The notes beneath the pieces were generated by a model that ran no database searches, was not told the origin of the DNA, and saw nothing but the letters and a program-made list of their open reading frames with translations. From Candidatus Levyibacteriota bacterium (lineage in GTDB: Bacteria; Patescibacteria; Microgenomatia; Levybacterales; UBA12049): a stretch of 20,322 nt of DNA. The position numbers and the translations under genes are program-made. Below, piece after piece: positions 5,192 through 20,312 of the stretch; within the stretch, counting starts at the first letter, position 1, and each line of letters starts with the position of its first letter. The stretch lies in assembly GCA_003173915.1 (NCBI GenBank), contig PPGL01000049.1, forward strand, positions 1-20,322, read 5' to 3'.

Positions 5192-6016
5192 TGGAGAAGG
5201 AGTCCCTGTCGGAACTGTTTGGGTTGGAGATACCTGAGTTGGAGTTACCGCTGTTGGGACTACTCGTGTTGGTGCTATCGTAGGTACTGCTTGTGTTGGA
5301 ACAGTTTCGACTGGAACTACCTCTGTTGGAGTTGGAATTGTCTCAATTGGCGGCACAATTGGAGCTGAATTTTGTGATTGAAGAGATGAAATGATTTTTT
5401 GTTCGTCTGGTGATAACGGCTGCAACAGGGTATCCGCGGTATATGCAATTTGTGGAACAGCTTTATAATAAAAAACAATAGTAAGTGCTGCAGATTTATT
5501 TGATGTAAGATGTATCTCTATGACACGAGAAATTGGAAATTCATTTTGAAGAGAAGATACAAATTGGCGAATATGATCAATATTTCCAGTAAGCGTGATA
5601 TTTAGCTGCAAAAAAGAATCAGTAAGATCTTTTGTAGTCGAAAGATCTCCCACCTGAAAAGAGTAATCACCAAGACTTGTCCCTGATTGTTCTGCTGCAT
5701 CTGATATTGAACTTAAAATATCTGCAAAATCTTTTCCCTCTGGGAGAGCTGTTGTTGCTGTTTGGACATCAGTATCAAGCTCGTTGGAATTGATATTTTT
5801 TATTGTATTCATGCTTTGATTTAACTCATTAATTTTTGTTTCTACTTGTACCATTTTATTTTGACTATCAAACCATTGTTGTATTTCAGGAATGATAAGA
5901 TAGAAAACTAGTAAAATCGCTATTAGACAGGCAACAACTGGAATAATATAAATTTTGTACTTAAAGTACAAAACATGAAATGTTGTTTGGTTAATTGGCC
6001 GAATTTGAGTACTCAT
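5174..6016 (-). CDS. pilO: PilO-like type IV pilus alignment protein with Pro/Thr-rich tail
   Basis: A 280-residue bitopic membrane protein: short cytoplasmic N-terminus, one membrane helix at about 21-43, a coiled-coil stretch (50-80) and an alpha/beta domain (about 90-190), as in PilO. PilO pairs with PilN to form the inner-membrane alignment complex. Position at the end of a pilM-pilN-pilO series supports the call more than sequence identity does. Residues 219-280 form a low-complexity tail rich in Pro, Thr and Val with repeated VPT/APT units, not part of canonical PilO; it might span the cell wall or carry O-glycans. The ATG overlaps the pilN stop by 4 bases. The 3' end overlaps trmD on the other strand by 18 bases. 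Confidence 0.8.
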   Translation of the reverse strand: MSTQIRPINQTTFHVLYFKYKIYIIPVVACLIAILLVFYLIIPEIQQWFDSQNKMVQVETKINELNQSMNTIKNINSNELDTDVQTATTALPEGKDFADILSSISDAAEQSGTSLGDYSFQVGDLSTTKDLTDSFLQLNITLTGNIDHIRQFVSSLQNEFPISRVIEIHLTSNKSAALTIVFYYKAVPQIAYTADTLLQPLSPDEQKIISSLQSQNSAPIVPPIETIPTPTEVVPVETVPTQAVPTIAPTRVVPTAVTPTQVSPTQTVPTGTPSPSPTGP

Positions 6017-6549
6017 AAGGGTGTTGCAGAAACTGCTAATGAATATCTCCCATTTGCAACATCTACAGCAAGACTGCTGATTGTTATTTTTTTAAATAAG
6101 GATTTTTTATCTACCTGACTTTTGAGAAAATCCAAAAAGGAATTTATAGAGAGAAGAGACGGTGATGTAACAATAAGGTTTACTCCTGTTTCGTCAATAC
6201 CAAGTGTATCAACACTTACATCGCCGGGCGTATTTAATGCAATTGCTGTAAGTGTTTTGTCAAGCGACGTACTGTGCTGAAAAAGCGTAGTAATATTTTG
6301 CAATCTGTTCCGAAGAAGTAAGAGTTTTGCAATTTTTTCTTTTTGACTGAGTAGTTGTTGTGTTGTCGCTTGTTGTTGTGCTTCAAGTTTGGGCAAAGGA
6401 GAATAAAAATTAAGGAAAAATAATCCAACCGCACCTATAGCAACGATACCTAAACTACTATAAGCGATACGATTAAAAATCCTAACAATCCTTGCCTGTC
6501 TTTCAAGTGCAGCATGTTTGCTACTGATGAGATTAATCCCGTTATTCAT
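6013..6549 (-). CDS. pilN: PilN-like type IV pilus assembly protein
   Basis: A 178-residue bitopic membrane protein. The N-terminal 'INLISS' resembles the PilN motif (INLLP) that binds the groove of PilM. A membrane helix covers about residues 28-50, followed by a coiled coil (54-85) and a small alpha/beta domain. The gene lies between pilM and pilO and overlaps both. I chose the ATG at 6549; a GTG two codons earlier (6555) is possible. The start overlaps the pilM stop by 8 bases. PilN would link cytoplasmic PilM to PilO. Sequence conservation in this family is low, so the call leans on topology and context. Confidence 0.82.
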   Translation of the reverse strand: MNNGINLISSKHAALERQARIVRIFNRIAYSSLGIVAIGAVGLFFLNFYSPLPKLEAQQQATTQQLLSQKEKIAKLLLLRNRLQNITTLFQHSTSLDKTLTAIALNTPGDVSVDTLGIDETGVNLIVTSPSLLSINSFLDFLKSQVDKKSLFKKITISSLAVDVANGRYSLAVSATPL

Positions 6550-7573
6550 ATTCACGCATTGCCTGTCCTACCGCAAGGGCATATTCAGGTGCGTCAGCAG
6601 CAATTTCATCTGGAACCTCTTGCGAACCTAAAATTTTCCATGGATTTGCAGTAACTGTTGCTATACCGACAGTACTTGTGAAAAAAGGAATGAGTCCTGG
6701 AAGCTTGGCTGTTCCTCCAGATAAAATAATTTGCTGTATTGGTTCGGTAGGAAATTTTTCTGTGTAAAATGCTAGTGCTTTTTTCACTTCAGTAATAATA
6801 GCAGCTAGTACTGGTGCCGTTGCTCTTCCAATTTTCCCTCCAAAATCTCCCTGCGTGAGACCGTAGGTTTTTTTATATTCTTCTGCTTGCTGAAAAGAAA
6901 AACCAAAATCTGCAGCAATAGACCTAGTAAGAGCAATCCCTCCTGTTGATGCAGAATAGACAAATGTAAGTAAATTATTCCTGACAATCGCAAGAGATGT
7001 ACCCATTGCGCCAATATTGACGATAAGAACAGGTGGAGTGTTCTCTGCAGTAACGGTTGAGCGAACAATTGATAATATTTCTGTCTCAAGTGTAGCAATA
7101 GCAATACCTGCAAGGGAAAAAACACGTTCATATTTATCAATGAGCATGGTTGGCGCACCAACAAGTAATACACTCATTTTTGTTTCTGGGTCTGTAGTGG
7201 TTGGGCGATGCAACACTTTGTAATCAAGCGTTATGGAGTTAAGCGGAACAGGAATATATTGTTCTGCTTCCCAGTATATTGCAGAAGAAAGTTCTTTATC
7301 TGATAGGGCAGGCATTTCAATAATACGAGTAAATACCTGACTTTCCGGAAGCGATAGATTTACCAAACGACTTTCAATATGTGCTTCTTCAAGAATTTTT
7401 GTAATCTTTTGCGCGACTTCTTCTTGATCAAGAGGAGACTCAGACAACATGCCTCTGGCTGGTGTTGGCATAGTATATACCGAGTTAAGAGTATATCCTT
7501 GACTCGCTTTATCAAGCCATACAGCTTTCATAGTGGTCGTCCCAATGTCCAGGCCGAATACTTTATTTCTCAT
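6542..7573 (-). CDS. pilM: Type IV pilus assembly protein PilM (actin-like ATPase)
   Basis: A 343-residue cytoplasmic protein of the actin/FtsA fold. The phosphate 1 motif VFGLDIGTTTMKAVWL lies at about 5-20; 'LIVNIGAMGTSLAIV' in the middle corresponds to phosphate 2; and 'IILSGGTAKLPGLIPFF' (about 280-296) to the adenosine motif. PilM binds the cytoplasmic tail of PilN and couples the alignment complex to the assembly ATPases. An upstream in-frame start at 7621 would add 16 residues that lie inside the preceding gene; I chose the ATG at 7573 because it forms an ATGA overlap with the preceding stop and begins at the conserved N-terminus. Identification is firm. Confidence 0.94.
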   Translation of the reverse strand: MRNKVFGLDIGTTTMKAVWLDKASQGYTLNSVYTMPTPARGMLSESPLDQEEVAQKITKILEEAHIESRLVNLSLPESQVFTRIIEMPALSDKELSSAIYWEAEQYIPVPLNSITLDYKVLHRPTTTDPETKMSVLLVGAPTMLIDKYERVFSLAGIAIATLETEILSIVRSTVTAENTPPVLIVNIGAMGTSLAIVRNNLLTFVYSASTGGIALTRSIAADFGFSFQQAEEYKKTYGLTQGDFGGKIGRATAPVLAAIITEVKKALAFYTEKFPTEPIQQIILSGGTAKLPGLIPFFTSTVGIATVTANPWKILGSQEVPDEIAADAPEYALAVGQAMREYE

Positions 7574-8472
7574 TCTCTTACAAATAATGCGTGGTAATAT
7601 TCCGAAGGAAGTGCATCCCACGCTTGAAAGTAGGATACTTGGCGCTTTACCTCAGAAGAAGCTCCCGATACGCCAGTTGCTGTAATAAGCTGCCCTTGTG
7701 CAGGAAGGGCAGCATCTGTAGCAATACCCATAACAGCGCTTGCATACAATGGAATAACTCGAGCAATAAGTCCTCGTGTAATACCAATTGTTACTTTGTA
7801 TAAAAATGTTTTCCCACCTATTTGAGGGTTGACTGATGACGAAACTGCAGTAAAGTTATTTACCGCTTGTCGTCCGGTACTACACGGATCGTAAAGATAA
7901 CGGGCAACTTGTGGATTTGTTCGGTTATTATAAATAACAATAATTTCAAGGGCTGCCATTGTGTTGATTTGAGGACTCGGATCGCAGGTATTTGCTGCTG
8001 GATCTCCCCAATAGACAGTCAGATGTCCTGTTGCTGCTCCTCCGGGCCATGGATTTTGATAGAGTTGCGTTGGATCTGTATTATAGGTAGTAAGCCAAAT
8101 ATCATACCCATCATCTTGAGCAATATACGCACCGTTATTAAGAAGCAATTGATATGATCCTCCACTTAGTGAAGAACTAACTGGAGTAAGTGTTGCGTTA
8201 GAAATTTTGGTACCTGTTCCTAAATCAAGGGTAATATTATTTATGTTTCCTGACTGATTTGCTTTTGATCCGTACAATTGCAGTAGCTGCTCAACTCCTG
8301 CTTCCGCAGCTGAGAATGCTCGCTGAGAATTAACTTCTTCGGTAGTAAGTCTAACATTTGTCAAACTTCGTGAAGCAATTGAAAGTCCAACGGTTAGAGC
8401 AACCACCATTACCAAAACAACAATTAAAAACGCTTGTCCACGTTGAAGTGACTTCCTGTAAGGAATATGCAT
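7570..8472 (-). CDS. PilX/GspK-like minor pilin
   Basis: About 300 residues. The N-terminus 'RKSLQRGQAFLIVVLVMVV' has a Gly for prepilin peptidase cleavage and a long hydrophobic helix but lacks Glu at position +5 of the mature protein; Ile is there instead. That is typical of the tip subunits PilX and GspK. After the helix comes TTEEVNSQRAFSAAEAGVEQ, a segment highly characteristic of the PilX N-terminal family. The rest is a large extracellular domain of unknown fold with two Cys residues. Start choice is uncertain: ATG at 8472 gives a 10-residue leader, while a GTG at 8499 would add nine residues; neither has a convincing Shine-Dalgarno sequence. It sits between the prepilin series and pilM. 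Confidence 0.8.
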   Translation of the reverse strand: MHIPYRKSLQRGQAFLIVVLVMVVALTVGLSIASRSLTNVRLTTEEVNSQRAFSAAEAGVEQLLQLYGSKANQSGNINNITLDLGTGTKISNATLTPVSSSLSGGSYQLLLNNGAYIAQDDGYDIWLTTYNTDPTQLYQNPWPGGAATGHLTVYWGDPAANTCDPSPQINTMAALEIIVIYNNRTNPQVARYLYDPCSTGRQAVNNFTAVSSSVNPQIGGKTFLYKVTIGITRGLIARVIPLYASAVMGIATDAALPAQGQLITATGVSGASSEVKRQVSYFQAWDALPSEYYHALFVRE

Positions 8473-8508
8473 ACCTCTAGCGTAACAAGGAGGAATCACT
8501 CTGTCAAC

Positions 8509-9090
8509 TCATCGTTGATAATTACGAAATACTATTGAGGTGGAAAAATTAATAGCAGAAGAAGAAGCAATTTGCTCGACAAATGCATTGCTTCCTAATT
8601 GAAGTAGTGAAAAAGAAATCCCAATAACCGGATACTGTCCAGAATCCGCCTGCGAGCAAGTAAATGAGCATGCATGTGTTTGTACCAAACTTGTATCAAG
8701 AAGTGATGTCGGCGCGGCTCCTCCTGTTTGAAGTGTAATTGTGTTAGCTGGAATTGGAGCAACTGGATTTGCACCAGTGCAGGCAATTGTAGAAATATTC
8801 CCAGTCCCATCCAAAACAGAAATCGATGTAGTTTGGGTGGGAGCATTTGGACTTCCACAGGGAAATGTTGGAGATTTTATCGCATATGCATTTCTAATAA
8901 TTTTTGCTATCTGAGAAATTGTATAATCGCCATTTTGTTTGACTGTTGTTAAAATAGTAGATTTACTGGAAGTACGAAGAGTAGTGATAAGGGTTGCTGC
9001 AGCAATACCACCAATAATGCCAAATACCATCATAACCGCAAGAATTTCAATAAGCGTAAAGCCTGCACTATGTTGATAATTTTTTTTCAT
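8509..9090 (-). CDS. Prepilin-type N-terminal cleavage/methylation protein (PilW/GspJ-like)
   Basis: A 193-residue prepilin. The leader MKKNYQHSAG precedes FTLIEILAVMMVFGIIGGIA, a class III signal with Gly at -1, Phe at +1 and Glu at +5, so PilD should cleave and N-methylate it. The extracellular domain has four Cys residues, including a close pair in 'HACSFTC'. Phrases such as 'KQNGDYTISQIAKIIRNA' after the helix are typical of PilW/GspJ minor pilins, which join the pilus tip complex. It overlaps the preceding gene in an ATGA junction. The minor-pilin class is inferred from order and the post-helix segment. Confidence 0.83.
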   Translation of the reverse strand: MKKNYQHSAGFTLIEILAVMMVFGIIGGIAAATLITTLRTSSKSTILTTVKQNGDYTISQIAKIIRNAYAIKSPTFPCGSPNAPTQTTSISVLDGTGNISTIACTGANPVAPIPANTITLQTGGAAPTSLLDTSLVQTHACSFTCSQADSGQYPVIGISFSLLQLGSNAFVEQIASSSAINFSTSIVFRNYQR

Positions 9091-9650
9091 GGCGTTACAA
9101 CATTATTAATTGGTGAAAGACACGTTGTCACAGATACAGTATGACAATACGACCCTTGTGGACATTGTCCATCTGCCCAGGAAACAGCAACAGTTACCTG
9201 ACTTGGCCATTGAGAAGGGGGTGAAGCTTCAAACGTTGGATTAATGCATGAAGATGAACGTGTACGGTCAATGGTTACTCCCCGAACAAATGCATCGAGA
9301 TTTTGTGCTGTGCAAGAAGGAGTTGTCAGTAACCCACAATCTCCTGGATATGTTGTAAGCTGTGTACACGCTTTTGCCATACAATAGTGTTCAACATTAT
9401 CAGGAGTAGGTAAGTTACCTGGATTGGAAAGTGATAAAAATGCATCAAAATTATTTTCCCTCATCGACCTAACAAGCTCAATTCCTTGCTGAGCATATTC
9501 TGTTGCAAGATGTTGATTTTTTACAAATTGAGCGTTTGTGAGTGCTGAGATAACAACAAGTGTTGTTGAAACAATAATGACAGAAAGTGCTGCAAAAGCA
9601 ATCAGAACTTCAATAAGCGATTGTCCATGTTGTTGTCTTAATATACTCAT
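9087..9650 (-). CDS. Prepilin (PilV/GspI-like), cysteine-rich
   Basis: A 187-residue prepilin. Leader MSILRQQHG is followed by QSLIEVLIAFAALSVI: Gly at -1 and Glu at +5 are present but +1 is Gln instead of Phe, as is common in PilV/GspI minor pilins ('SLIEVLIA'). The segment 'YAQQGIELVRSMRENNFD' after the helix is a typical PilV-family feature. The exposed domain contains eight Cys residues ('CMAKAC', 'CGLL', 'SCTAQ', 'SSCINP', 'QCPQGSYC', 'TCLSP'), suggesting several disulfides. Both ends overlap the neighbouring prepilin genes in ATGA junctions, so translation is coupled. Order with the neighbours (GspH-like, GspI-like, GspJ-like, GspK-like) mirrors the minor pseudopilin order of type II secretion operons. 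Confidence 0.85.
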   Translation of the reverse strand: MSILRQQHGQSLIEVLIAFAALSVIIVSTTLVVISALTNAQFVKNQHLATEYAQQGIELVRSMRENNFDAFLSLSNPGNLPTPDNVEHYCMAKACTQLTTYPGDCGLLTTPSCTAQNLDAFVRGVTIDRTRSSSCINPTFEASPPSQWPSQVTVAVSWADGQCPQGSYCHTVSVTTCLSPINNVVTP

Positions 9651-10225
9651 TGTATTGTACCAATCGAACTCACTGTTGTCGAAAGTCTTTCTCCTTTATT
9701 TGATTGTAAATAAAATTCTACTGTTCCTGAAGAAATAGAATTTCCCTGAGTTCCATAGGTAACATTTCCTGTTATTGGAGCAAATTGAAACATGCGTGCT
9801 GTTGTTTGGCGTGTAATGACGACACCACTTGGTAATGTTTTTCCATTAACAAATGTATTTGTTGCAGTACCATTTCCATTAATACAGGTTTGATATAATT
9901 CGTAATCATACGACCCACTGCATCCAGTATCAGGACAATAGGCAGCAGGAGATTCATTGAGAGGATTATTTGGATCGCCTGTGGTCCGGCAACAAACAAC
10001 CACCAGGTATCCTCCAAATTGCTGAGACGAGGTACACGCATCATTATACTGAGAAAGCGTATTTGTCCTGGCAACATTGAGCATTGTATGAAAATCTGCA
10101 TTTGCATTTTTTAACAATTGTCGCTGAGAAAATATTACAAAACTTGCCAAACCTCCTACAGATAACAACGCAATAATGGAGAAAACAATAACCAGTTCTA
10201 TAAGCGTAAAACCTTTTTGGTACAT
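9647..10225 (-). CDS. Prepilin (GspH/FimT-like)
   Basis: A 192-residue prepilin with the very short leader MYQKG before FTLIELVIVFSIIALLSVGG (Glu at +5). After the helix, 'VIFSQRQLLKNANADFHTML' resembles GspH/FimT minor pilins. The C-terminal domain is mainly polar, with a Cys cluster ('VVCCRTT', 'YCPDTGCSG', 'QTC'). A longer frame starting at 10315 would run deep into the preceding gene; I chose the ATG at 10225, four bases after the preceding stop, because it gives a proper class III leader. It overlaps the next gene by an ATGA junction. Confidence 0.84.
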   Translation of the reverse strand: MYQKGFTLIELVIVFSIIALLSVGGLASFVIFSQRQLLKNANADFHTMLNVARTNTLSQYNDACTSSQQFGGYLVVVCCRTTGDPNNPLNESPAAYCPDTGCSGSYDYELYQTCINGNGTATNTFVNGKTLPSGVVITRQTTARMFQFAPITGNVTYGTQGNSISSGTVEFYLQSNKGERLSTTVSSIGTIQ

Positions 10226-10229
10226 ACTG

Positions 10230-10760
10230 TTATGGATTACGGACAACGTAATATGTCGAGGATGAACATCCGCCAACTCCATTACTTGGAGATGCTGTTG
10301 TCCCTTGAGTATCACCTACATTTTCAAGACATGCTGCAAGAACGTAACTGGTAGCACTGCCTGAATAGTAGTAACTTCCACTATTGTAGTAAGACTGTCC
10401 GCTCTCCTGGAATGGATCGCAGGGTATTTTTTGCATATACACCAAGCATCCACTTGTCCCAAGAGTACAACCTGGAGGATATACGAGCGGATTAATACAT
10501 GAAGGAATTGATGTTGGATATTGACTGTTGTCTGCGCGATACTGCTCAAGCGCTGCTTGAATTTGGGAAATGTCTGATTTTCTCCTTCCGTCTCTTGCGC
10601 GCTGGCGAATTCCAATAAAATTACTCATAAGAAGGGTTGCTAAAATTCCAATGATTGCAATAACAATAAGAAGCTCTATTAAGGTAAATCCTTTCTTGAA
10701 TCGTGAATCGTGAATCGTAAATCTTAAATCGTAAATCTTAAATCGTAAATCTTTCATCAT
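10230..10760 (-). CDS. Type IV prepilin with a leader encoded by heptamer repeats
   Basis: A 176-residue prepilin. The processed part starts FTLIELLIVIAIIGILATLL (Glu at +5) and continues with RQRARDGRRKSDISQIQAAL, a motif common to Patescibacteria pilins of the GspG-like class; 'PTSIPSC' and 'CDPF' suggest the disulfide-stabilised loop of such pilins. The leader is unusual: about 25 residues with a seven-residue period (DLRFKIY / DLRFTIH / DSRFKKG) produced by a 7-bp tandem repeat. Start choice: two adjacent ATGs (10760 and 10757) lie just after the preceding stop; an upstream frame to 10901 sits inside the previous gene. It is not certain that translation begins at the repeat, but no later ATG, GTG or TTG precedes the cleavage site. 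Confidence 0.83.
   Translation of the reverse strand: MMKDLRFKIYDLRFTIHDSRFKKGFTLIELLIVIAIIGILATLLMSNFIGIRQRARDGRRKSDISQIQAALEQYRADNSQYPTSIPSCINPLVYPPGCTLGTSGCLVYMQKIPCDPFQESGQSYYNSGSYYYSGSATSYVLAACLENVGDTQGTTASPSNGVGGCSSSTYYVVRNP
10696..10758. repeat. 7-bp tandem repeat (eight units plus a degenerate ninth) inside a prepilin leader
   Basis: On the plus strand the units are TTGAATC, GTGAATC, GTGAATC, GTAAATC, TTAAATC, GTAAATC, TTAAATC, GTAAATC (10696-10751), then TTTCATC. The consensus is (G/T)TRAATC. Three units make 21 bp, so the translated product repeats every seven residues. Similar 7-bp periodicity occurs at 13460-13501 and 15847-15895. Confidence 0.9.
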
Positions 10761-10761
10761 A

Positions 10762-11295
10762 TCATGGATTTGTATTTGGGCTTGATACACCATAATTACA
10801 TGCTGAACCTCCACAATGGGCCCCCTGAGGATCATTTTGACATATTCCACCCGAACATGCATCTGGATCTTTTGTTCCTCTGTCAAGAGATGCATAAACA
10901 TAATACATTTGATTATTTTGTGCGGTAACGTAAAGATATGTTTTTGATGGATACGATGGGTCTTTTGGTATTACTTCCATATACTTTTGCCACACCGGAG
11001 TACTTGTTCCCCAAGCAATCGGAGTGCCTGGCGGATAATTAGTACTCGTATCTATAATTTCAAATGAATTTACACCATTATTAAATCCTGTTGAAGGAGG
11101 GTATTGCTCATGATCTTGGTAATATTGCTCAAGTGCTTTCTGAATTTGTGCAAGATCCGATTTGCGCCGAGCGTCTCGGCTTTTTTCAAACTGAGTGAAA
11201 GGATCAAGAGTAACAATAATAAATACAGCAAGTACTGCTAAAATTGCAATAGAGATAACAAGTTCAATCAGCGTAAAACCAATCTGTTTGTTCAT
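10762..11295 (-). CDS. Type IV prepilin (GspG/PilA-like)
   Basis: A 177-residue prepilin with the short leader MNKQIG and mature start FTLIELVISIAILAVLAVFI (Glu at +5). The following RDARRKSDLAQIQKALEQYY and 'EQYPPSTG' are the typical Patescibacteria pilin pattern of the GspG-like class, where the segment after the helix is charged and precedes a short sheet. 'YMEVIPKDPSYPSKTYLYV' and the C-terminal Cys-containing loop complete the domain. It is a candidate major pilin because the architecture is compact, but which of the eight is major cannot be told. It starts three bases after the preceding stop with no obvious Shine-Dalgarno sequence. Confidence 0.86.
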   Translation of the reverse strand: MNKQIGFTLIELVISIAILAVLAVFIIVTLDPFTQFEKSRDARRKSDLAQIQKALEQYYQDHEQYPPSTGFNNGVNSFEIIDTSTNYPPGTPIAWGTSTPVWQKYMEVIPKDPSYPSKTYLYVTAQNNQMYYVYASLDRGTKDPDACSGGICQNDPQGAHCGGSACNYGVSSPNTNP

Positions 11296-11298
11296 ATG

Positions 11299-12045
11299 TT
11301 ATTGACTACAATAATCTAAGCAACACGCATTCCCGACACATCCAGGTGCCCCACAATACTGCCCCAGTCCATTGCCATTGCTATCTGTTCCGACAACATT
11401 ACATATCCCATTAGGATACTGGGGTGTTTTACTATTGCATGAATATATTTTTTGGCAACCGGGAACCGGCGTAAGAAGTATTACTCCTGTTCCCACATTA
11501 ATATTACCACACTGAACAGTTCCCGAGGTAACGCAGTAGTTATATCCATTTGTTTTATAAAAATCTGGCAAACATCCACCCGGTGTACTTTTGTCTAGTA
11601 CCTCAAGCGAGCAGAGTGTTTCTGGGGAGTTAGATTGCGTTGACACATTTGTTGCACGTAAATCTCCAAATAACACATTATATTGTGGACACGTTGAAGA
11701 TGTATCAGTTGCATAGACATAGCATTTTGACGAATCGATACCACATTGTGGATCTTGAGGAACTTTTTTCATATAGATAATGTTTGGTTTGTTGACATTA
11801 ATAAATGCTGCTCCAAAGGGAAGAGATGTTGGATAACATCCTGTATCATTGTAATATGCATCAAGGGCAATTTTTATTTGATGCAAATCTGATTCTCTTT
11901 TTGCATCGTTAGACTTAGTAAATTGTTCAAGAGGATTAAGAAGACCAAATACTCCAAGCATAAGAATTGCAATGATAGCAATAACAATAAGGAGTTCAAT
12001 AAGCGTAAACCCCAAATTTAGAGGAGTGTCAGTATTTTTTGCCAT
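11299..12045 (-). CDS. Cysteine-rich type IV prepilin
   Basis: A 248-residue prepilin. Leader MAKNTDTPLNLG, mature start FTLIELLIVIAIIAILMLG with Glu at +5. The segment 'FTKSNDAKRESDLHQIKIAL' and 'GCYPTSLP' match the neighbouring GspG-like pilins. A C-terminal extension of about 100 residues is very rich in Cys; I count 16 in the mature protein, including 'PGCVGNACCLDYC' at the very end. This suggests an extracellular disulfide-stabilised domain, perhaps adhesive. I chose the ATG at 12045 (preceded by GGGAG) over the frame opening at 12210, because the latter lies inside pilD. The start overlaps the end of pilD by 28 bases. Confidence 0.85.
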   Translation of the reverse strand: MAKNTDTPLNLGFTLIELLIVIAIIAILMLGVFGLLNPLEQFTKSNDAKRESDLHQIKIALDAYYNDTGCYPTSLPFGAAFINVNKPNIIYMKKVPQDPQCGIDSSKCYVYATDTSSTCPQYNVLFGDLRATNVSTQSNSPETLCSLEVLDKSTPGGCLPDFYKTNGYNYCVTSGTVQCGNINVGTGVILLTPVPGCQKIYSCNSKTPQYPNGICNVVGTDSNGNGLGQYCGAPGCVGNACCLDYCSQ

Positions 12046-12824
12046 AACATTGGCTCCCAAAACCAGCTTATGGTTGCGCCAATGATTAAGAATGGACCAA
12101 ATGGAATGGTACTTCCGAAGAACTGTTTTTTTCCCCATAGTATCAGTATGAGTGCAGCAATTGCTCCTGTCAAGAAAGCGATGTAGATAGCAAGAAATGT
12201 CCCAGGCCAACCAAGAAGTATTCCAAGAAAAAGTGCCAACTTAACATCCCCAAACCCCATACCTTTTCCCTTTGTTACGAGAAACAGTGCAAGAAAAAAA
12301 GCACAGGCAACAAATCCAGAAATAATGTGAAGCAAAAATTGAGAAGGATTCTGAAAAAGTAAGTAGAGAACTGTTATCCCTATTATTGGAAAAAGGACAA
12401 TATCTGGAATAATCCCAGACCATAAATCTGTATAAAAAATAACAATAAAGGAACAAAAAATAAGGAGAGAAAAAATAACAGAGAGAAAAAGTGTTACTGT
12501 GCTTTCATTAGCTAGTTGAGCGCTAAGCGGGGAGAGCAGTATAACAAACAACACACCAGTAGTCAGTTCAACAAGAGGATACTTGAGTCCAATCATTTTT
12601 TTGCAGTACCGACATTTACCCTCAAGAAAAATAAAGGAAAGAAGAGGAATAAGATCGTACCAGTACAATGTATGCTTACAAAATTCACAATGAGATCTTC
12701 CTGTCAAAAATGTTTCTTCACGGGGAACTCTATCGATAACAACATTGAGGAATGATCCAATTGATATGCCAAGAAAAAATGAAATTGTTGAATATGCTAT
12801 GTTCACGAGGATTATCTGGTACAC
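12018..12824 (-). CDS. pilD: Prepilin peptidase / N-methyltransferase PilD
   Basis: PilD cleaves the leader after Gly and methylates the new N-terminus of prepilins in the membrane. The 268 residues show the N-terminal methylase-type part with two CxxC pairs (CEFC and CRYC, zinc-binding) within 'GRSHCEFCKHTLYWYDLIPL' and the adjacent 'KCRYCKK'. The peptidase aspartates are in 'VIFYTDLWSGIIPD' and in 'GMGFGDVKLALFLG' (the GxGD motif of aspartic membrane proteases). About seven membrane helices follow from hydrophobicity. The start is a GTG at 12824 overlapping the upstream prepilin by 13 bases; a second in-frame GTG (12806) is an alternative. The 3' end overlaps the next prepilin. Identification is secure. 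Confidence 0.95.
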   Translation of the reverse strand: MYQIILVNIAYSTISFFLGISIGSFLNVVIDRVPREETFLTGRSHCEFCKHTLYWYDLIPLLSFIFLEGKCRYCKKMIGLKYPLVELTTGVLFVILLSPLSAQLANESTVTLFLSVIFSLLIFCSFIVIFYTDLWSGIIPDIVLFPIIGITVLYLLFQNPSQFLLHIISGFVACAFFLALFLVTKGKGMGFGDVKLALFLGILLGWPGTFLAIYIAFLTGAIAALILILWGKKQFFGSTIPFGPFLIIGATISWFWEPMLWQKILTLL

Positions 12825-13387
12825 CAGAAGCAGGTAGCGTCCGATCCTCCTTGAGACGCGCAGTTGGGTCTTGCTGTGCCATTTTGATTATATTTTGTAT
12901 TTGCGTCTTTTTGTTGCGATTTAGAAGATGGTTGAAAACATCCAATTACTTGATCTGCCCCATTGGCATTATTGTAGCTAATACTAATCTTTGAAAGATC
13001 GCCTGTGTCGAGAGAAAATGCTGACTTTAATTCATTGTCTCCTTGTAAGGCAGTAACACAATCACTCACTCCACTTGCTCCAGACAAAACCATAGGATTA
13101 AGTACTGGAGCAGTTTGACTATTACAAGCTCCTCCATTATTTGCAGCTGAATCCCATGGATAGGCATTGTGTGTTTCGTAGTAGCGAACTGTCGCATTTA
13201 AGAACTCAACAAGTACATTTTTCACATTTGCATCTTGTGCTTTTTTAAGCTGTTCGAAAGGATCAATGGTTGCGACAAGAGATGCAGCCAAAATACCTAA
13301 AATACCAATAACCACAAGAAGTTCAATAAGGGTAAAGCCTTTAGAGGAAGAAGAATTTTTTTTGAATAGGGCAGACAATTGCTTCAT
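12812..13387 (-). CDS. Type IV prepilin (first of the series)
   Basis: A 191-residue prepilin from the ATG at 13387: leader MKQLSALFKKNSSSSKG, mature start FTLIELLVVIGILGILAASL (Glu at +5). The post-helix segment 'DPFEQLKKAQDANVKNVLVE' and 'HNAYPWDS' fit the GspG-like pilins of this locus; Cys residues flank an insertion and 'CFWCTR' ends the protein. An in-frame ATG at 13414 would add nine residues, but a consensus -35 TTGACA at 13434-13429 would put the -10 over that codon, which favours 13387. The gene is separated from pilC by a heptamer-repeat spacer and overlaps pilD by 13 bases. Confidence 0.84.
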   Translation of the reverse strand: MKQLSALFKKNSSSSKGFTLIELLVVIGILGILAASLVATIDPFEQLKKAQDANVKNVLVEFLNATVRYYETHNAYPWDSAANNGGACNSQTAPVLNPMVLSGASGVSDCVTALQGDNELKSAFSLDTGDLSKISISYNNANGADQVIGCFQPSSKSQQKDANTKYNQNGTARPNCASQGGSDATCFWCTR

Positions 13388-13405
13388 TTTCTTACTATAA
13401 TTTAA

Positions 13406-13434
13406 CTTAAACATACTTTTGATTTCGCTGTCAA
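13406..13434 (-). promoter_or_regulatory. Possible promoter for the prepilin-pilD series
   Basis: On the minus strand a perfect -35 TTGACA (13434-13429) is followed after 17 bp by TTTAAG (13411-13406), a weak -10. It would let the prepilins be expressed apart from the upstream pilB-pilT-pilC genes, in line with the larger gap here. Confidence 0.4.
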
Positions 13435-13459
13435 GAGGGGAATTGGTAGCCTAATTAAA

Positions 13460-13501
13460 TAACCAAATAACTAATAACGAATAATAAATAACTGTTAATA
13501 A
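13460..13501. repeat. 7-bp tandem repeat between pilC and the first prepilin
   Basis: Six consecutive heptamers on the plus strand: TAACCAA, ATAACTA, ATAACGA, ATAATAA, ATAACTG, TTAATAA, with consensus ATAACNA. The array sits in the spacer just beyond the pilC stop codon. Its ends AATAAATAA and TTATTTATT could pair in an AT-only stem. Confidence 0.7.
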
Positions 13502-13506
13502 ATTAT

Positions 13507-14712
13507 TTATTGAATCGAGGATGTCAGATTATAAATTGGTGTAATAATAGAAATAATAAGAAATGCAACAGCAACACCAAGTACAACCATAATAAATGGT
13601 TCAAGCGCTGTGGTTAATCCTTTTACTTTTCCTTCGACTTCACGTTCAAAATATTCAGAAACTTTGAGTAGCGACTCATCAAGCTTACCTGTTTGTTCTC
13701 CAATTTTTACCATTTGAACCAAAATGGGCGGGAAAATAATATACGTAGATAATGCGTCACCAACACTGATTCCTTTTTCAACACGCTTGGCTATGTCAAC
13801 GATTGCATTTCTATAGACAAAATTTCCTGCGACATCGGCTGATTCATTTAATGATTGCACAACAAGGGTCCCTGCACCAACTAAAAGACCAAGCGTACGA
13901 GCAAATTCAGTAAGAATAGAAAGTTGTGAAATGTTGCCAAAAATTGGAATTCGCAAAAATAACTCATCGCGTAATAATTTTCCTGATTCTGTTGCTGTCC
14001 ACCGTTTATATGCAAATATAAGGAGAACTATCCCTCCAATAACAAACGGCCAATAATTGATAGTCAAATTCGAAATACCAACAACAACTCGTGTAGTAAA
14101 AGGCAATTGAATATTTAAATTTTCATACAGACTTGTTAGCTGCGGAACAACGAAAATCATCATAATAGACATAACAACTATCATTAAAATAACAATAATC
14201 ACAGGATACATAAGTGCCGATCGGACAGTCGCGCGCAGTTTCTGACTTTTTTCCAAATTATCTGCAAGCCGCTCTAAAATTTTATCCAAAAAACCAGATG
14301 ATTCTCCTGCACGAATAAGCGCAACGTAAATTGGAGAAAATATATTAGGATATTTACCAATTGCTAATGCTAAAGTTTTCCCTTCTTGGATATCTGTAAT
14401 AATTCCTTGCACGGTCTCTTTCATATTTGGGTTTTGTGTTTGCTCTTTGAGAATATTAAGTGCCTGCATGAGTGTTAGACCAGATGTAAGAATTGATGCA
14501 AGTTGTCTGGTAAAAAGCACTAAATCATTTCCATTTTGTCTTTTAAAAAAAGAAAGGAAAGGTAAAATAGCATCTTCTTGTTTTTGTTTGACAGCAATAG
14601 GAATAAGGTCTTTTGTACGAAGGAAATATACGGCTTCTGCTATGTCTTTTGCCTCTATTTCTCCTTCTTGCGTTTTTCCGTCTCTGGTTGTTGCATGATA
14701 GGTTAGCTTCAT
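13507..14712 (-). CDS. pilC: Type IV pilus inner-membrane platform protein PilC
   Basis: A 401-residue GspF-family polytopic protein, normal length. The N-terminal 'MKLTYHATTRDGKTQEGEIEA' is the typical start. Two repeated GspF domains follow (about 60-185 and 265-390), each starting with a pattern like 'FTRQLASILTSGLTLMQAL' and 'FARTLGLLVGAGTLVVQSL'. Membrane helices lie at about 165-190, 215-235 and 375-395. PilC sits under the pilus base and is contacted by PilB and PilT. It starts nine bases after pilT, so the two are one transcription unit; no clear Shine-Dalgarno sequence is seen. Confidence 0.95.
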   Translation of the reverse strand: MKLTYHATTRDGKTQEGEIEAKDIAEAVYFLRTKDLIPIAVKQKQEDAILPFLSFFKRQNGNDLVLFTRQLASILTSGLTLMQALNILKEQTQNPNMKETVQGIITDIQEGKTLALAIGKYPNIFSPIYVALIRAGESSGFLDKILERLADNLEKSQKLRATVRSALMYPVIIVILMIVVMSIMMIFVVPQLTSLYENLNIQLPFTTRVVVGISNLTINYWPFVIGGIVLLIFAYKRWTATESGKLLRDELFLRIPIFGNISQLSILTEFARTLGLLVGAGTLVVQSLNESADVAGNFVYRNAIVDIAKRVEKGISVGDALSTYIIFPPILVQMVKIGEQTGKLDESLLKVSEYFEREVEGKVKGLTTALEPFIMVVLGVAVAFLIISIITPIYNLTSSIQ

Positions 14713-14721
14713 ATTGTCACA

Positions 14722-15789
14722 TTACATCAGGAGTCTCATAAATTCATCTGGATGAAGTGCGTAACTTCGTGCCATTTCCAGGGTAACTGTTCCAGAAAGT
14801 ACCAGCTGAGATAACGAAGATTCCATGGTAATCATCCCAACGTCCTGGGATGTTTGAATAACTGAATCAATAAGATGCGTTTTCCCATCACGAATATTAC
14901 TTGAGGTTGCTGGAGTACCAATAAGTACCTCAAGTGCTGGGATTCTTCCTCCTCCAATCTGAGGAATAAGTCTTTGAGAAACAATACCTTTCAATACAAA
15001 AGCCAACTGAATTCGAATTTGTGATTGTTGATGCTCGGGAAAAGAATCAATAATACGATCAATACTTTGTGCTGCAGAATTTGTATGTAAGGTGGAGAAC
15101 ACCAAGTGGCCTGTTTCAGCAATTGTCATAGCAGATGCCATTGTTTCAGCGTCACGCATTTCTCCAACAAGAACAACATCTGGATCTTCACGAAGCGCAG
15201 AACGAAGTGCCAAAGACCAGGAATGTGTATCAATTTTCATTTCCCGTTGAGAGATAATACTTTTTCCTTTGGGATACACGTATTCTATTGGATCCTCAAT
15301 TGTTAAAATATGCGCTGCTCGTTCCATATTAACTTCATTGACCATTGCTGCAAGTGTCGTCGATTTTCCTTGTCCTGTTGGACCACACACAAGCACTAAT
15401 CCTTGTCGTAGCGCAGTAAAACTGTGCAGAATTTTGGGCATATGCAATTGCTCTATACTTCGAATTGAACGTGGTAGATACCGAAACGCTGCAGAGAGCG
15501 ATCCTTTTTGGTAATACGCATTCACACGAAAACGTCCTAGTTCACCTGATGTTCCACCTCCATAGGCAATAGAAAAATCCAACTCTTTATTTGCAAGAAG
15601 CACATCTTTTTGTTCGGGAGTTGTGATTGAAAATACCATCTTATCAATATCATCTCCTGTTAGAAGTTGCATGTTGGTTAAAAACATCAACTCACCATCA
15701 ATACGAAGTGCCGGAGGAATATCAGGCAACAAATGCAAATCTGATGCATTATTTGTTACTGTTAACTCTAGTAGTTGTTTTATATCCAT
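14722..15789 (-). CDS. pilT: Type IV pilus retraction ATPase PilT
   Basis: A 355-residue hexameric ATPase that drives pilus disassembly. The N-terminal 'MDIKQLLELTVTNNASDLHL' is the standard PilT start. Walker A is GPTGQGKS (136-143), with Gln in place of the usual Ser of GPTGSGKS. The Asp box, Walker B and His box lie in GEMRDAETMASAMTIAETGH (209-228) and 'FSTLHTNSAA' (231-240). The C-terminal retraction motif is represented by 'SSNIRDGKTHLIDSVIQ' (296-312), which matches the AIRNLIRE-type motif only loosely. Length is typical. The ATG at 15789 has no clear Shine-Dalgarno sequence and follows a repeat-rich spacer after pilB. A PilU-type function is possible but PilT is more likely. Confidence 0.92.
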   Translation of the reverse strand: MDIKQLLELTVTNNASDLHLLPDIPPALRIDGELMFLTNMQLLTGDDIDKMVFSITTPEQKDVLLANKELDFSIAYGGGTSGELGRFRVNAYYQKGSLSAAFRYLPRSIRSIEQLHMPKILHSFTALRQGLVLVCGPTGQGKSTTLAAMVNEVNMERAAHILTIEDPIEYVYPKGKSIISQREMKIDTHSWSLALRSALREDPDVVLVGEMRDAETMASAMTIAETGHLVFSTLHTNSAAQSIDRIIDSFPEHQQSQIRIQLAFVLKGIVSQRLIPQIGGGRIPALEVLIGTPATSSNIRDGKTHLIDSVIQTSQDVGMITMESSLSQLVLSGTVTLEMARSYALHPDEFMRLLM

Positions 15790-15798
15790 AGTTATTTT

Positions 15799-15877
15799 TT
15801 AATTGGTTATTTAGTTAACTGGTTAGTTAGTAAAAAGTTATTCTATATCTATGAACTATTAACTATGAACCAATTAA
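15799..15877. repeat. 10-bp inverted repeat in the pilB-pilT spacer
   Basis: TTAATTGGTT (15799-15808) is perfectly complementary in inverted orientation to AACCAATTAA (15868-15877). The 59 bases between them are AT-rich and include GTTA-type repeats. A long-loop hairpin or cruciform could form, but the repeat content of the spacer could also produce the match by chance. Confidence 0.45.
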
Positions 15878-15895
15878 CTACCTAACCCTAAACCC
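15847..15895. repeat. 7-bp tandem repeat between pilB and pilT
   Basis: Seven consecutive heptamers on the plus strand: ATCTATG, AACTATT, AACTATG, AACCAAT, TAACTAC, CTAACCC, TAAACCC. They decay in similarity towards the pilB stop codon at 15898. The 7-bp period is shared with the arrays at 10696-10758 and 13460-13501, though the unit differs. Confidence 0.65.
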
Positions 15896-15897
15896 CA

Positions 15898-17736
15898 TCA
15901 CTCTTGTGCCACTCTAATGACTTCTTCTATTGTTGTTACCCCTTGCAACACTTTTAAATATCCATCTTGCTTCATGGTTATCATTCCTTCCTGTGTTGCT
16001 TGTTTTTCTATCGTATCACTATCAGGATGTTGCAAAACAAGCTGTCCAATTTTTTCAGTAACAGGTAATACTTCAAAAATACCCATTCTTCCTAAATATC
16101 CCGAATCACCACACTCACTGCATCCTTGTCCTTTATAGAGAGTAATTGGTTGTTGTGTCGTGGGGAAAAGCGATCCTAAAATTGCTTTCATTTCATCAAT
16201 AATTTGTTGCGGAGGAGCATAAGGAGCTTTACAATGCTCGCAAATTTTTCTTACGATACGTTGTCCAACAAGAGCATTAATGGTCGATGCCAAAAGAAAA
16301 CTTTCTGCTCCTAAATCAATAAGACGAGGAAGTGCCCCAGCTGCACTGGAAGTATGAAGCGTAGAGAACACCAAATGTCCGGTAAGGGACGCTTGTATTG
16401 CGAGTTCGGTTGTTTCTTTATCACGAATTTCTCCAACAAGAATAATATTTGGATCTTGACGCAAAAAAGCCCGAAGACCTGAGGCAAATGTTAATCCAAC
16501 AGCAGGATTAATCTGTACTTGATTAACACCAGGAAGCTCATATTCAACCGGATCCTCAAGCGACATAATGTTAACTCGGGTTGTATTAAGTTTGGACAAA
16601 ACAGCATACAACGATGTAGTTTTTCCAGATCCAGTCGGTCCACAAACAATAATAATGCCATGTGGTCTAAGCATTGCATTTTCTAGATTTTTCAGAGCTA
16701 CTCCTGCAAGACCAAGTTCCACCAAGGAAGGAATACCCCCAGATTTTCGAAGTAAACGCATAACAATTTTCTCCCCATGCACTGTCGGCAGTACAGAAAT
16801 ACGAAGATCTACTTCTTTTTCATCAATTTTAAAATTAAACCGTCCATCTTGGGGGCTGCGGTGTTCGTCAATTTTCATTTCAGACAAAATCTTAATACGA
16901 GAAATAACAGCTTCCTGAACACTTTTGGGAAGTGTCAGTCGATCATATAAAATGCCATCAATTCTGTAACGGACTCTTACTCGATCTTCCATTGGTTCAA
17001 TGTGGATATCTGAAGCACGAGAGGTAACAGCATATTCAAGAATGGTTGAGACAATTTTTGCAATTGGAGCTTCCTTAATGATTTCTCCAATCTTTTTGCT
17101 ATCAATTGTTTTAATCGTACTTGAAAGCTCTTCTGTTTCTTTCACAGCCTTTCCAACTTCTCCAACCAATTCTTGTCGATATTGTGTTGCAATTGCTTTT
17201 GCAATATCACTTGCTGTTGCAGCATATGCTTTTATTACAAATCCAGTTTTTTGCTGAACAAATTGAATTGCTTCAAGGTCGGCAGGATTACTCATTGCGA
17301 TAGAAAGTGTTCTGGTTTTATCTTCGTAGTTAAACGGAATCAATTTAAATCTATCGACAACAGCTTGAGGAACAAAATTTAGTGCTTCCGGAGAAAATGC
17401 GGTAGTTGCAAGGGTAACAAATGGAATGCCAAGCATTTTTGCGCGAGCTTTTGTCAGCTGTTCTTCTGTAACAAATTTTAATTCCTGAAGAAGAGTTTCC
17501 GCTGATTTTCCCGTTGATGCACTTTGGGCTTTTATTGTCATCACTTGATCCGAAGTTAGTGTTCCATCGGATGCTAAAATATCCAAAACTCCTTGCATTG
17601 GACCAAGGGACTCATCTGTACTTACCGAAGCTGGAGGAGTAGGATCTGGAACATTTGATACAGAACCATCCGGCATTTGGGCTACCGGTTGATTAGGTTG
17701 ACTTTGAACTAGAACAGGATCAGATGAAGCGGGCAT
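15898..17736 (-). CDS. pilB: Type IV pilus assembly ATPase PilB
   Basis: A 612-residue hexameric ATPase that powers pilus extension. Residues about 50-150 form an N-terminal MshEN-type domain ('SAETLLQELKFVTEEQLTKA'), which in some relatives binds cyclic di-GMP. The core has 'ASDIHIEP' and 'RIDGILYDRL', Walker A GPTGSGKT (366-373), Walker B region 'PNIILVGEIRDKETTELA', and the His box 'FSTLHTSSAA'. The zinc-binding tetracysteine CEHC (499-502) and CSEC (539-542) separates PilB/GspE from PilT. The frame is open to a TTG at 17772, but the ATG at 17736 is preferred because a plausible promoter overlaps the longer version. It is the first gene of the pilus cluster. Confidence 0.96.
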   Translation of the reverse strand: MPASSDPVLVQSQPNQPVAQMPDGSVSNVPDPTPPASVSTDESLGPMQGVLDILASDGTLTSDQVMTIKAQSASTGKSAETLLQELKFVTEEQLTKARAKMLGIPFVTLATTAFSPEALNFVPQAVVDRFKLIPFNYEDKTRTLSIAMSNPADLEAIQFVQQKTGFVIKAYAATASDIAKAIATQYRQELVGEVGKAVKETEELSSTIKTIDSKKIGEIIKEAPIAKIVSTILEYAVTSRASDIHIEPMEDRVRVRYRIDGILYDRLTLPKSVQEAVISRIKILSEMKIDEHRSPQDGRFNFKIDEKEVDLRISVLPTVHGEKIVMRLLRKSGGIPSLVELGLAGVALKNLENAMLRPHGIIIVCGPTGSGKTTSLYAVLSKLNTTRVNIMSLEDPVEYELPGVNQVQINPAVGLTFASGLRAFLRQDPNIILVGEIRDKETTELAIQASLTGHLVFSTLHTSSAAGALPRLIDLGAESFLLASTINALVGQRIVRKICEHCKAPYAPPQQIIDEMKAILGSLFPTTQQPITLYKGQGCSECGDSGYLGRMGIFEVLPVTEKIGQLVLQHPDSDTIEKQATQEGMITMKQDGYLKVLQGVTTIEEVIRVAQE

Positions 17737-17763
17737 TAGTTTTATCGTACAAAAAGTTAGAGT

Positions 17764-17792
17764 ATAATACAAGATAGCGGATAGGGAGTTAA
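17764..17792 (-). promoter_or_regulatory. Promoter for pilB and the pilus cluster
   Basis: Minus strand TTAACT (17792-17787), a 17-bp spacer and TATTAT (17769-17764). The start site would be near 17757, giving a leader of about 20 bases before the ATG at 17736. The palindromic repeat element begins only 7 bp upstream of the -35. Confidence 0.5.
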
Positions 17793-17798
17793 AACATC

Positions 17799-17902
17799 GT
17801 CATTCCGAGGGTAGTCGAGGAATCTTCCTAACAAGAGTTTAACGTTGCACTTGTGATAGATCCCTCCACTCCCGAGCTGAGCTTGGGTTCGGTCGGGATG
17901 AC
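17799..17902. repeat. 104-bp dispersed palindromic element (intergenic copy)
   Basis: The ends GTCATTCCGA (17799-17808) and TCGGGATGAC (17893-17902) are imperfect inverted repeats. Inner blocks include CGAGGAATCTTCC and AGATCCCT. The reverse complement of the element inside pncB (19932-20018) shares the terminal GTCATTCYGAG, an inner CGARGAAYCTTC, AGATCCCT and a GGATGAC end, so the two are copies of one family. It occupies most of the divergent spacer between pilB and holB. No protein is encoded. Confidence 0.85.
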
Positions 17903-17943
17903 AAGATTATCTTTACGCTTGCCACCTAACGCACAACTATTAT

Positions 17944-19163: not shown

Positions 19164-20312
19164 ATGAAATTTTTTGATAAGAACATGTTAAAAGATATAC
19201 AACAAGGTTTTTATTCTGCTGCCTATTTTAATCGAACACAACAGATACTTTTAAAAGAACAAAACCTTACTCCCGTTACTATGCAGATATTTCAGAAACA
19301 GAACAATCAGATTGTTTGTGGTATCGATGAAATTATAGAGCTTTTTAGAGAATGCACTGGATTTTTTGAGAATGGAACCTTTGTAAAAAAATTTAATGAA
19401 CTGAAAATTGAAACCTTGAAAGATGGAGAAGAAACAAACGAATGGGAAACAGTAATGCATATCACTGGTCCATATGCATATTTTGCACATCTTGAATCAG
19501 TATATTTAGGTATTCTTGCAAGACGAACAAAAGTTGCAACCAACACCAAACGTGTCGTTGCTGCAGCAAATGGAAAATCTGTTATTTTTTTTGCAGATAG
19601 ATTTGATTATTTTCTCAATCAAGAAGGTGATGGATATGCTGCCAAACTTGGGGGAGTAAAAGGTGTTGCAACAGATGCCCAAGCATCTTGGTTTGGAGAA
19701 AAGGGGATTGGAACAATTCCCCACGCGCTTATTGCAATCAATAATGGAAATACCGTTGAGGCAGCAAAACAATTTGCAAAATACTATCCGGATGTTCCGC
19801 TGATTATCCTTGTAGATTTTGATAATGATTGTGTAAACACTTCTCTTGAAGTAGCAAAGGCGTTAGGGAATAAGCTTTGGGGAGTGAGACTAGATACGTC
19901 GGAAAAGCTGATTGATAAATCACTAGAAAATGTCATCCTGAACGCACGTGAAGCCTTGCCTGCCGGCAGGCAGGGATCTTCTCAGAAAGAAGGTTCTTCG
20001 CCAAAGGCTCAGAATGACAATGTTCATGGAGTCAATCCAACTCTTGTTAAAAATGTTCGAGAAGCATTAAATACTCATGGATTTAGCCATGTAAAGATAG
20101 TCGTTTCAGGTGGATTTAACGAAGAGAAAATTAAAAAATTCGAACAACAACAAACCCCTGTTGATATGTATGGCGTAGGCTCATCTCTTCTTCGCGGACA
20201 TGCTGAATTTACAGCAGATATTGTAAGGGTTGGAAATCGAGAAATTGCAAAGGTGGGAAGAAAATTTACTCCGAGCAAAAAATTACAGGTTATTGACAGC
20301 AAGCAGATTTAA
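19164..20312 (+). CDS. pncB: Nicotinate phosphoribosyltransferase with an in-frame repeat-derived insertion
   Basis: The enzyme makes nicotinate mononucleotide from nicotinate and PRPP in NAD salvage. The 382 residues show the family layout: 'PYAYFAHLESVYLGILARRT' (103-122), 'GVATDAQASWFGEKGIGTIPHALI' region (167-190), 'LWGVRLDTSEKLIDKSL' (239-254) and 'HVKIVVSGGFNEEKI' near 310-325, followed by 'YGVGSSL'. The last blocks bind the PRPP phosphate. Residues 257-285 are encoded exactly by an 87-bp palindromic repeat (19932-20018) and contain 'ALPAGRQG'; they lie between the 'GVRLDTS' strand and the helix starting 'NPTLVKNVREAL', probably in a surface loop. Sequence on both sides is intact, so the gene is probably functional. 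Start at the ATG six bases after a TATAAT. Confidence 0.9.
   Translation: MKFFDKNMLKDIQQGFYSAAYFNRTQQILLKEQNLTPVTMQIFQKQNNQIVCGIDEIIELFRECTGFFENGTFVKKFNELKIETLKDGEETNEWETVMHITGPYAYFAHLESVYLGILARRTKVATNTKRVVAAANGKSVIFFADRFDYFLNQEGDGYAAKLGGVKGVATDAQASWFGEKGIGTIPHALIAINNGNTVEAAKQFAKYYPDVPLIILVDFDNDCVNTSLEVAKALGNKLWGVRLDTSEKLIDKSLENVILNAREALPAGRQGSSQKEGSSPKAQNDNVHGVNPTLVKNVREALNTHGFSHVKIVVSGGFNEEKIKKFEQQQTPVDMYGVGSSLLRGHAEFTADIVRVGNREIAKVGRKFTPSKKLQVIDSKQI
19932..20018. repeat. 87-bp palindromic element inserted in frame in pncB
   Basis: Ends GTCATCCTGA (19932-19941) and TCAGAATGAC (20009-20018) are near-perfect inverted repeats. The centre holds the perfect 16-bp palindrome TGCCTGCCGGCAGGCA (19957-19972), unusually GC-rich for this window. 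The element starts on a codon boundary (codon 257) and is 29 codons long without a stop. AAT flanks it on both sides, possibly a 3-bp target duplication. Its reverse complement matches blocks of the element at 17799-17902. Confidence 0.88.

Follow-up and report, generated by a model that had tools for sequence, protein, structure and literature searches.

The pncB gene of the window, by which we mean the whole 20,322-nucleotide stretch of DNA analysed, most probably (a probability of roughly 0.82) contains a copied, non-coding palindromic repeat, a CGTC-type pair with a smaller palindrome nested inside it, which has been retained in a permissive loop of the protein. Comparisons made at the level of sequence show that the insert is a repeat, that many relatives do not carry it, that the nested palindrome has empty sites 20 bp shorter, that the reading frame is preserved and that the same pncB loop has been used recurrently. 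The insert would have been kept because it has no stop and preserves the frame, and because the loop tolerates very different lengths. Nearly all of the data are metagenome assemblies.

The pncB ORF matched NF005529 (nicotinate phosphoribosyltransferase) at 404.6 bits, above the curated cut-off of 378. Its named matches were from Levybacteria, Gottesmanbacteria, Roizmanbacteria and Patescibacteria, and the window resembles Microgenomates (Patescibacteria). An initial reading of the DNA alone (the sequence-only reading) had claimed that a palindromic element lies within the pncB frame, starts on a codon boundary and contains no stop, and the window sequence together with the ORF confirmed this. 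Codon 257 starts at base 19932, and the 87 bp given by that reading (19932-20018) correspond to 29 stop-free codons, residues 257-285; with the outer T/A pair included, the element is 89 bp long. Its inverted ends are TGTCATCCTGA and TCAGAATGACA, the left end being TGTCATCCTGA and the right end, as read from the other strand, TGTCATTCTGA. The second, intergenic copy claimed by the same reading was also found, between two divergent ORFs. As an aside, this setting differs from the main ones given for REPs, which, in the accessible text of PMC3733652, lie mostly between unidirectional and convergent genes. The features are collected in Table 1.

Table 1. Positions of pncB, the parts of its inserted element and the intergenic copy in the window.
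Feature	Position	Strand	Remark
pncB, nicotinate phosphoribosyltransferase, 382 aa	19164..20312	+	
Whole element: head-to-head pair of CGTC-type, REP-like units, in frame in pncB	19931..20019	+	
First unit as far as the nested insert (TGTCATCCTGA...GTGAAG)	19931..19953	+	read from sequence
Nested palindrome, 21-bp form of the 20-bp Patescibacteria palindrome	19954..19974	+	ALPAGRQ including first codon
Spacer separating the two units	19975..19993	+	read from sequence
Second unit (TGTCATTCTGAGCC... on minus strand)	19994..20019	-	
Intergenic copy, head-to-head pair CGTCATTCCGA ... TCGGGATGACA	17798..17903	+	

Inside the first unit of the pncB element lies the 21-mer CCTTGCCTGCCGGCAGGCAGG (19954-19974), which contains a perfect palindrome of 16 bp; no longer one occurs in the window. 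Without this 21-mer the first unit reads ...GTGAAG-GATC... and forms a 9-pair stem with two mismatches and the tail CTT; the stem closes only when the nested 21-mer is omitted. Terminal tags with AT stem pairs were seen in both copies, as TGTCAT at both ends of the pncB element and as CGTCAT and TGTCAT in the intergenic one. Both are head-to-head pairs, a count of two pairs made within the window alone. Palindromy by itself is weak evidence, since fold z-scores of both copies were weak (-1.5 to -1.8) and shuffling the codons of pncB, with those of the insert retained, also produced a 16-bp palindrome in 8 of 300 cases. An Rfam search of the window gave no match at the gathering threshold. The strong evidence for a real repeat comes from sequence comparison with relatives, not from the palindromy of the window copies.

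Among the closest counterparts are the CGTC-tagged REPs of Di Nocera, De Gregorio and Rocco (2013, PMC3733652). As far as the available text of that paper goes, these have a C/TGTC tag, AT first stem pairs, an 8-9 bp stem, a 4-5 bp loop and mostly a CCA tail, occur as head-to-head pairs and fall into four families, and their intragenic copies encode mostly 20 to 30 amino acids; five phyla are given there, with Patescibacteria not among them. The window element shares the tag, the AT first stem pairs, the head-to-head pairing and the intragenic coding, but lacks a perfect 8-9 bp stem and a CCA tail and is placed here in none of the four families. Because of its mismatched 9-pair stem and its CTT tail, it is labelled here as CGTC-type and REP-like, with no family. 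The portion of the same paper at hand also equates the Rickettsia palindromic elements (RPE) RPE-4 and RPE-6 of R. conorii with the CGTC-4 and CGTC-1 REPs, respectively. In-frame RPEs are already published, as are intragenic MITEs (ERIC and Coxiella QMITE1) whose repeat-encoded peptides are fused in frame to host proteins (PMC10969869, as far as its text was accessible). As with RPEs, palindromic repeats lie in frame in unrelated protein genes, here in relatives. In contrast to RPEs, however, the phylum is another one, the pncB relatives being Patescibacteria, the window's pair holds a nested second palindrome, and insertions recur in a single loop of the same enzyme; the element thus works like an RPE but is none.

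The 20-bp palindrome, CCTGCCTGCCGGCAGGCAGG, translates as LPAGRQ. The peptide ALPAGRQG had been taken as the signature of the whole 87-bp repeat, and this part of the claim has to be corrected: LPAGRQ is the translation of the inner 21-mer and the palindrome also occurs alone, so the signature belongs to the nested 20/21-bp palindrome. The other part, that it marks further invaded proteins, holds. Of 373 genomes belonging to the same class as G001 (Gottesmanbacteria), 155 contained an 18-mer of the palindrome, TGCCTGCCGGCAGGCAGG, and none of the 373 had a match to the reversed-pattern control. In the class to which G005 (Azambacteria) belongs, 67 of 188 genomes likewise had the 18-mer core. 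It was absent from 42 mixed non-Patescibacteria genomes and from 149 genomes of the class that includes G378 (a Gemmatimonadetes record), the last set giving one reversed-pattern match; the two outgroup sets have four genomes in common. Separately, the palindrome was found in 39 stretches of IMG/VR viral contigs (L328-L366), several with 3-4 copies.

In 445,646 bp of the genome G202, the 16-mer core was the commonest perfect 16-bp palindrome, with 22 copies vs 5 for the next. An empty site, defined as the flanks joined without the palindrome in the same genome with at most 2 mismatches in 22, was exactly 20 bp shorter for 13 of the 22 copies with sufficient flank and had no duplication; two others fitted only at one base less, one was an artefact match and six had no match. 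Among the sequences that carry the palindrome are CGTC-type repeats (GAAGAA^TCCCC) as well as further hairpin repeats. Judging by the exact 20-bp empty sites, the palindrome enters by clean insertion or copying that does not duplicate the target. Classical MITEs, in contrast, duplicate their target. The 21-bp form of the window recurred in 28 fetched loci and the form in the ValS gene of G016 in 10, all fetched by a pattern that admits the window's form; these recurrences make a ready-made 21-bp form as likely, on the sequences compared, as a compensating extra base after a 20-bp insertion. A 1-bp target duplication was also considered for the 21 bp and dropped, as the bases flanking the 20-mer agree at some in-gene sites only.

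The pncB protein was compared in an alignment of 120 rows, namely the window protein and 119 of the best 120 of 7999 scored homologues; P0001, the window's own protein, was removed before counting and tree building. The loop S253-G289 held 668 inserted residues in 49 of the 120 rows (28 rows with 8 or more), and the next insertion site held 76 residues in 7 rows. The segment is not alignable across all homologues, many being without it, as the sequence-only reading had anticipated; its further expectation, that these would lack precisely residues 257-285, was not borne out, the loop being 35 residues long in the window and 12 in P0006, and 10 or 12 in 42 of the 120 rows. The predicted pncB structure had a mean confidence of 91.4 with low values in the insert (block means of 65 and 50 across residues 261-280), a pattern consistent with a flexible loop but silent on surface exposure.

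A translated CGTC signature, composed after inspection of the loops, was found in 7 of the 120 loops, using at least two readings (VIL/VIP and HSD/HSE), and was absent from the 41,085 residues lying outside it. On a FastTree tree built without the loop columns, the signature requires 7 changes for 7 rows, and six of the seven rows have a sister leaf without it, with node supports of 0.05 to 1.0. The insertions of P0003 and the window may be common by descent, since P0003 is sister to a group of six containing the window. At the DNA level, a Gottesmanbacteria pncB (L001) carries a CGTC pair of other sequence in the same loop, while L086 has a different palindrome and a tandem repeat there, and L087 a tandem repeat. 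An earlier part of the Gottesmanbacteria gene (L001, 5180-5220) also holds an ATGCACA tandem repeat in frame.

Two rival explanations bear on this loop. It could be hypervariable through ordinary indels, with a likeness to repeats that is due to chance; the extra residues in many of the 49 rows are not recognisable as CGTC repeats, and the weak fold z-scores agree with this. We nevertheless judge it improbable, as the CGTC tag and pair structure are seen in the DNA of two pncB genes (the window and L001), the signature is confined to the loop, and the nested palindrome is a widespread repeat whose reversed pattern had no match in the 373 genomes. It is quite improbable that the insert was recruited for a function of pncB, such as regulation or binding: it is retained and open, but at this position relatives have either unrelated sequences read in different frames or just a minimal loop.

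CGTC-type pairs were also analysed in G001, the genome of L001, which holds 23 exact-pattern CGTC units. Across 31 loci examined, 14 of 53 units lay within ORFs of at least 150 aa and 19 of 53 had a strict-pattern partner within 120 bp. Six ORFs translate a CGTC pair in frame, 23-36 aa each, and five of these have Pfam families (TopA, SpoU, GT2, DegT and Wzy_C), the repeat in GT2 and DegT lying at or just beyond the end of the matched domain stretch. The whole L001 insert is not multi-copy in G001, where only pieces of it match elsewhere. The five Pfam genes, together with the segment-free pncB homologues, support the proposal that this lineage has a protein-invading repeat comparable to the Rickettsia palindromic elements.

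The position of the palindrome relative to genes was assessed at 93 distinct sites in 91 loci, taken from the matches listed, which cover the first places in each genome, L084 being excluded as a second hit of L081. Within ORFs of at least 150 codons lay 46 of the 93 sites, read as LPAGRQ in 34, PACRQA in 7 and CLPAGR in 5 (chi-square p = 4e-8); ORFs of 150 aa are not necessarily genes, and several with PACRQA or CLPAGR readings look spurious. Since ORFs cover 70% of these loci, copies are depleted within them (p = 6e-5), which argues for tolerance and not preference. In G202, the sampled genome richest in palindromes, none of the 22 copies lay in an ORF of at least 150 aa. It is very improbable that RNA removal or ribosome hopping eliminates the insert, ahead of translation or in its course, to give a protein without it. 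The element can fold into a hairpin and bypassing elements exist in some mitochondria; stop-free, in-frame inserts and a bias of 34, 7 and 5 among 46 readings are, however, features that removal need not have.

When 20 of the 46 ORFs, chosen as conserved-looking, were scanned with NCBIfam, 18 had a family match and 12 were above the curated cut-off: Ddl, MiaA, DNA ligase, class II aldolase, GlmS, TatD, ValS, TrmD, Fpg, DnaX, GuaA and RecF. CysS and AroC with the palindrome were identified through solved structures. A search of related genomes for LPAGRQ proteins thus yielded other invaded proteins, among them ValS, GlmS and CysS, as had been predicted. In CysS, L367 (G200) reads KK-SLPAGRQ-GFEP vs KKGFEP in L368, the two being 87% identical and differing here by 21 bp, at a site compared in 5 of 15 genomes. 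Alignment to solved structures gave an 8-residue gap for CysS (8qhp) and a 7-residue gap for GlmS (4amv). In one ValS loop, G015 and G016 carry 7-residue inserts whose positions differ slightly, G017 has another insert and G018 also has LPAGRQ there, and 9 of the 12 genes compared (of 15) are uninterrupted. FBA, Ddl, DnaX and AroC showed no clean 7-residue gaps against solved structures, and the MiaA alignment simply broke at the palindrome. The least probable account, that the insert is an assembly artefact joining repeat copies, can draw on the window being a metagenome contig and on short repeats favouring misassembly, but the frame is kept in pncB and 46 ORFs from many genomes and different record sets, the CysS and ValS inserts are exactly 7 residues, and 20-bp repeats are shorter than a sequencing read.

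Two further observations were made in these proteins. A second CysS loop (after WHIECSAMS and before DIHTGG) is hypervariable in L367, L369-L371 and L374; depending on the relative, it is as short as 3 residues or as long as about 45, and it contains repeat-like peptides. In Fpg of G092 and G109 (L278, L281), the PACRQA reading falls in the apparent zinc-finger region and brings its own cysteine.

The preferred reading, a copied repeat retained in a permissive loop, can be put as a sequence of steps. Both repeat types are widespread in Patescibacteria genomes, with genic copies fewer than expected and in frame where seen; gene-breaking copies would be purged, while those in permissive loops would survive and be translated, and the peptide would be present in the pncB protein and harmless. 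The repeats may move by copying or by insertion of a single-stranded hairpin, driven either by a trans-acting enzyme or by slippage during replication; the hairpin route taken by itself is somewhat less likely than not. GTAG REP/RAYT systems are similar in having short palindromes, often paired, and Y1_Tnp genes occur in 9 of the 12 pncB-bearing relatives; the window element, however, has no GTAG tag. Among 30 Y1_Tnp loci in relatives (L141-L170), none was flanked on both sides by CGTC units. Three of the 30 (L152, L161 and L167) had a GTCATYC/GRATGAC motif, a pattern that would miss degenerate units, no more than 150 bp from the ORF and on one side each; only that of L167 resembles a unit end. 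The flanks of these 30 loci thus gave no support to Y1_Tnp/RAYT as the mover. By eye, many of the same genes are flanked by short palindromes of their own, which differ from gene to gene.

In-frame REP insertion is already known, including CGTC pairs encoding 20 to 30 amino acids (PMC3733652, in its accessible part). A literature search with partial coverage, including few subscription papers, found nothing on the LPAGRQ palindrome, on CCTGCCGGCAGG or on palindromic repeats within Patescibacteria proteins. New, as far as we have seen, are a 20-bp palindrome spread across Patescibacteria, whose empty sites are clean and whose peptide signature turns up in core proteins, and the repeated landing in the pncB loop. 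Protein invasion by palindromic repeats, known mainly from Rickettsia, would thereby extend to a large, mostly uncultured phylum of small genomes, which points to repeat DNA as a continuing source of additions to functional proteins. With one peptide signature (LPAGRQ, PACRQA, CLPAGR), invasion becomes searchable in any proteome, and annotators and structure modellers should treat such peptides as an inserted repeat and not as a conserved motif. The loops of pncB, ValS and CysS are natural tests of loop tolerance to insertion, and the exact 20-bp empty sites make REP movement directly testable. A broader proposal, tentative and a little short of evenly balanced, is that CCTGCCTGCCGGCAGGCAGG, a perfect 20-bp palindrome, is a minimal mobile unit found throughout Patescibacteria, non-coding and inserting cleanly, with no duplication of the target, into repeats and core genes; it would have added LPAGRQ-type peptides to the loops of numerous conserved enzymes. 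Being stop-free in every reading on both strands, the palindrome would be an almost codon-safe insertion and, if the proposal is true, would give repeat DNA a permanent means of extending proteins across a whole phylum.

Elsewhere in the window, a type IV pilus-like cluster occupies the minus strand of 5174-17772, and the prepilin-motif DNA (repeat family D1) occurs in it six times. A 14-bp tandem repeat at 10694-10763 forms a putative long leader, KDLRFKIYDLRFTIHDSRFKK, before the prepilin motif GFTLIELL (ORF 10230-10901, minus strand).
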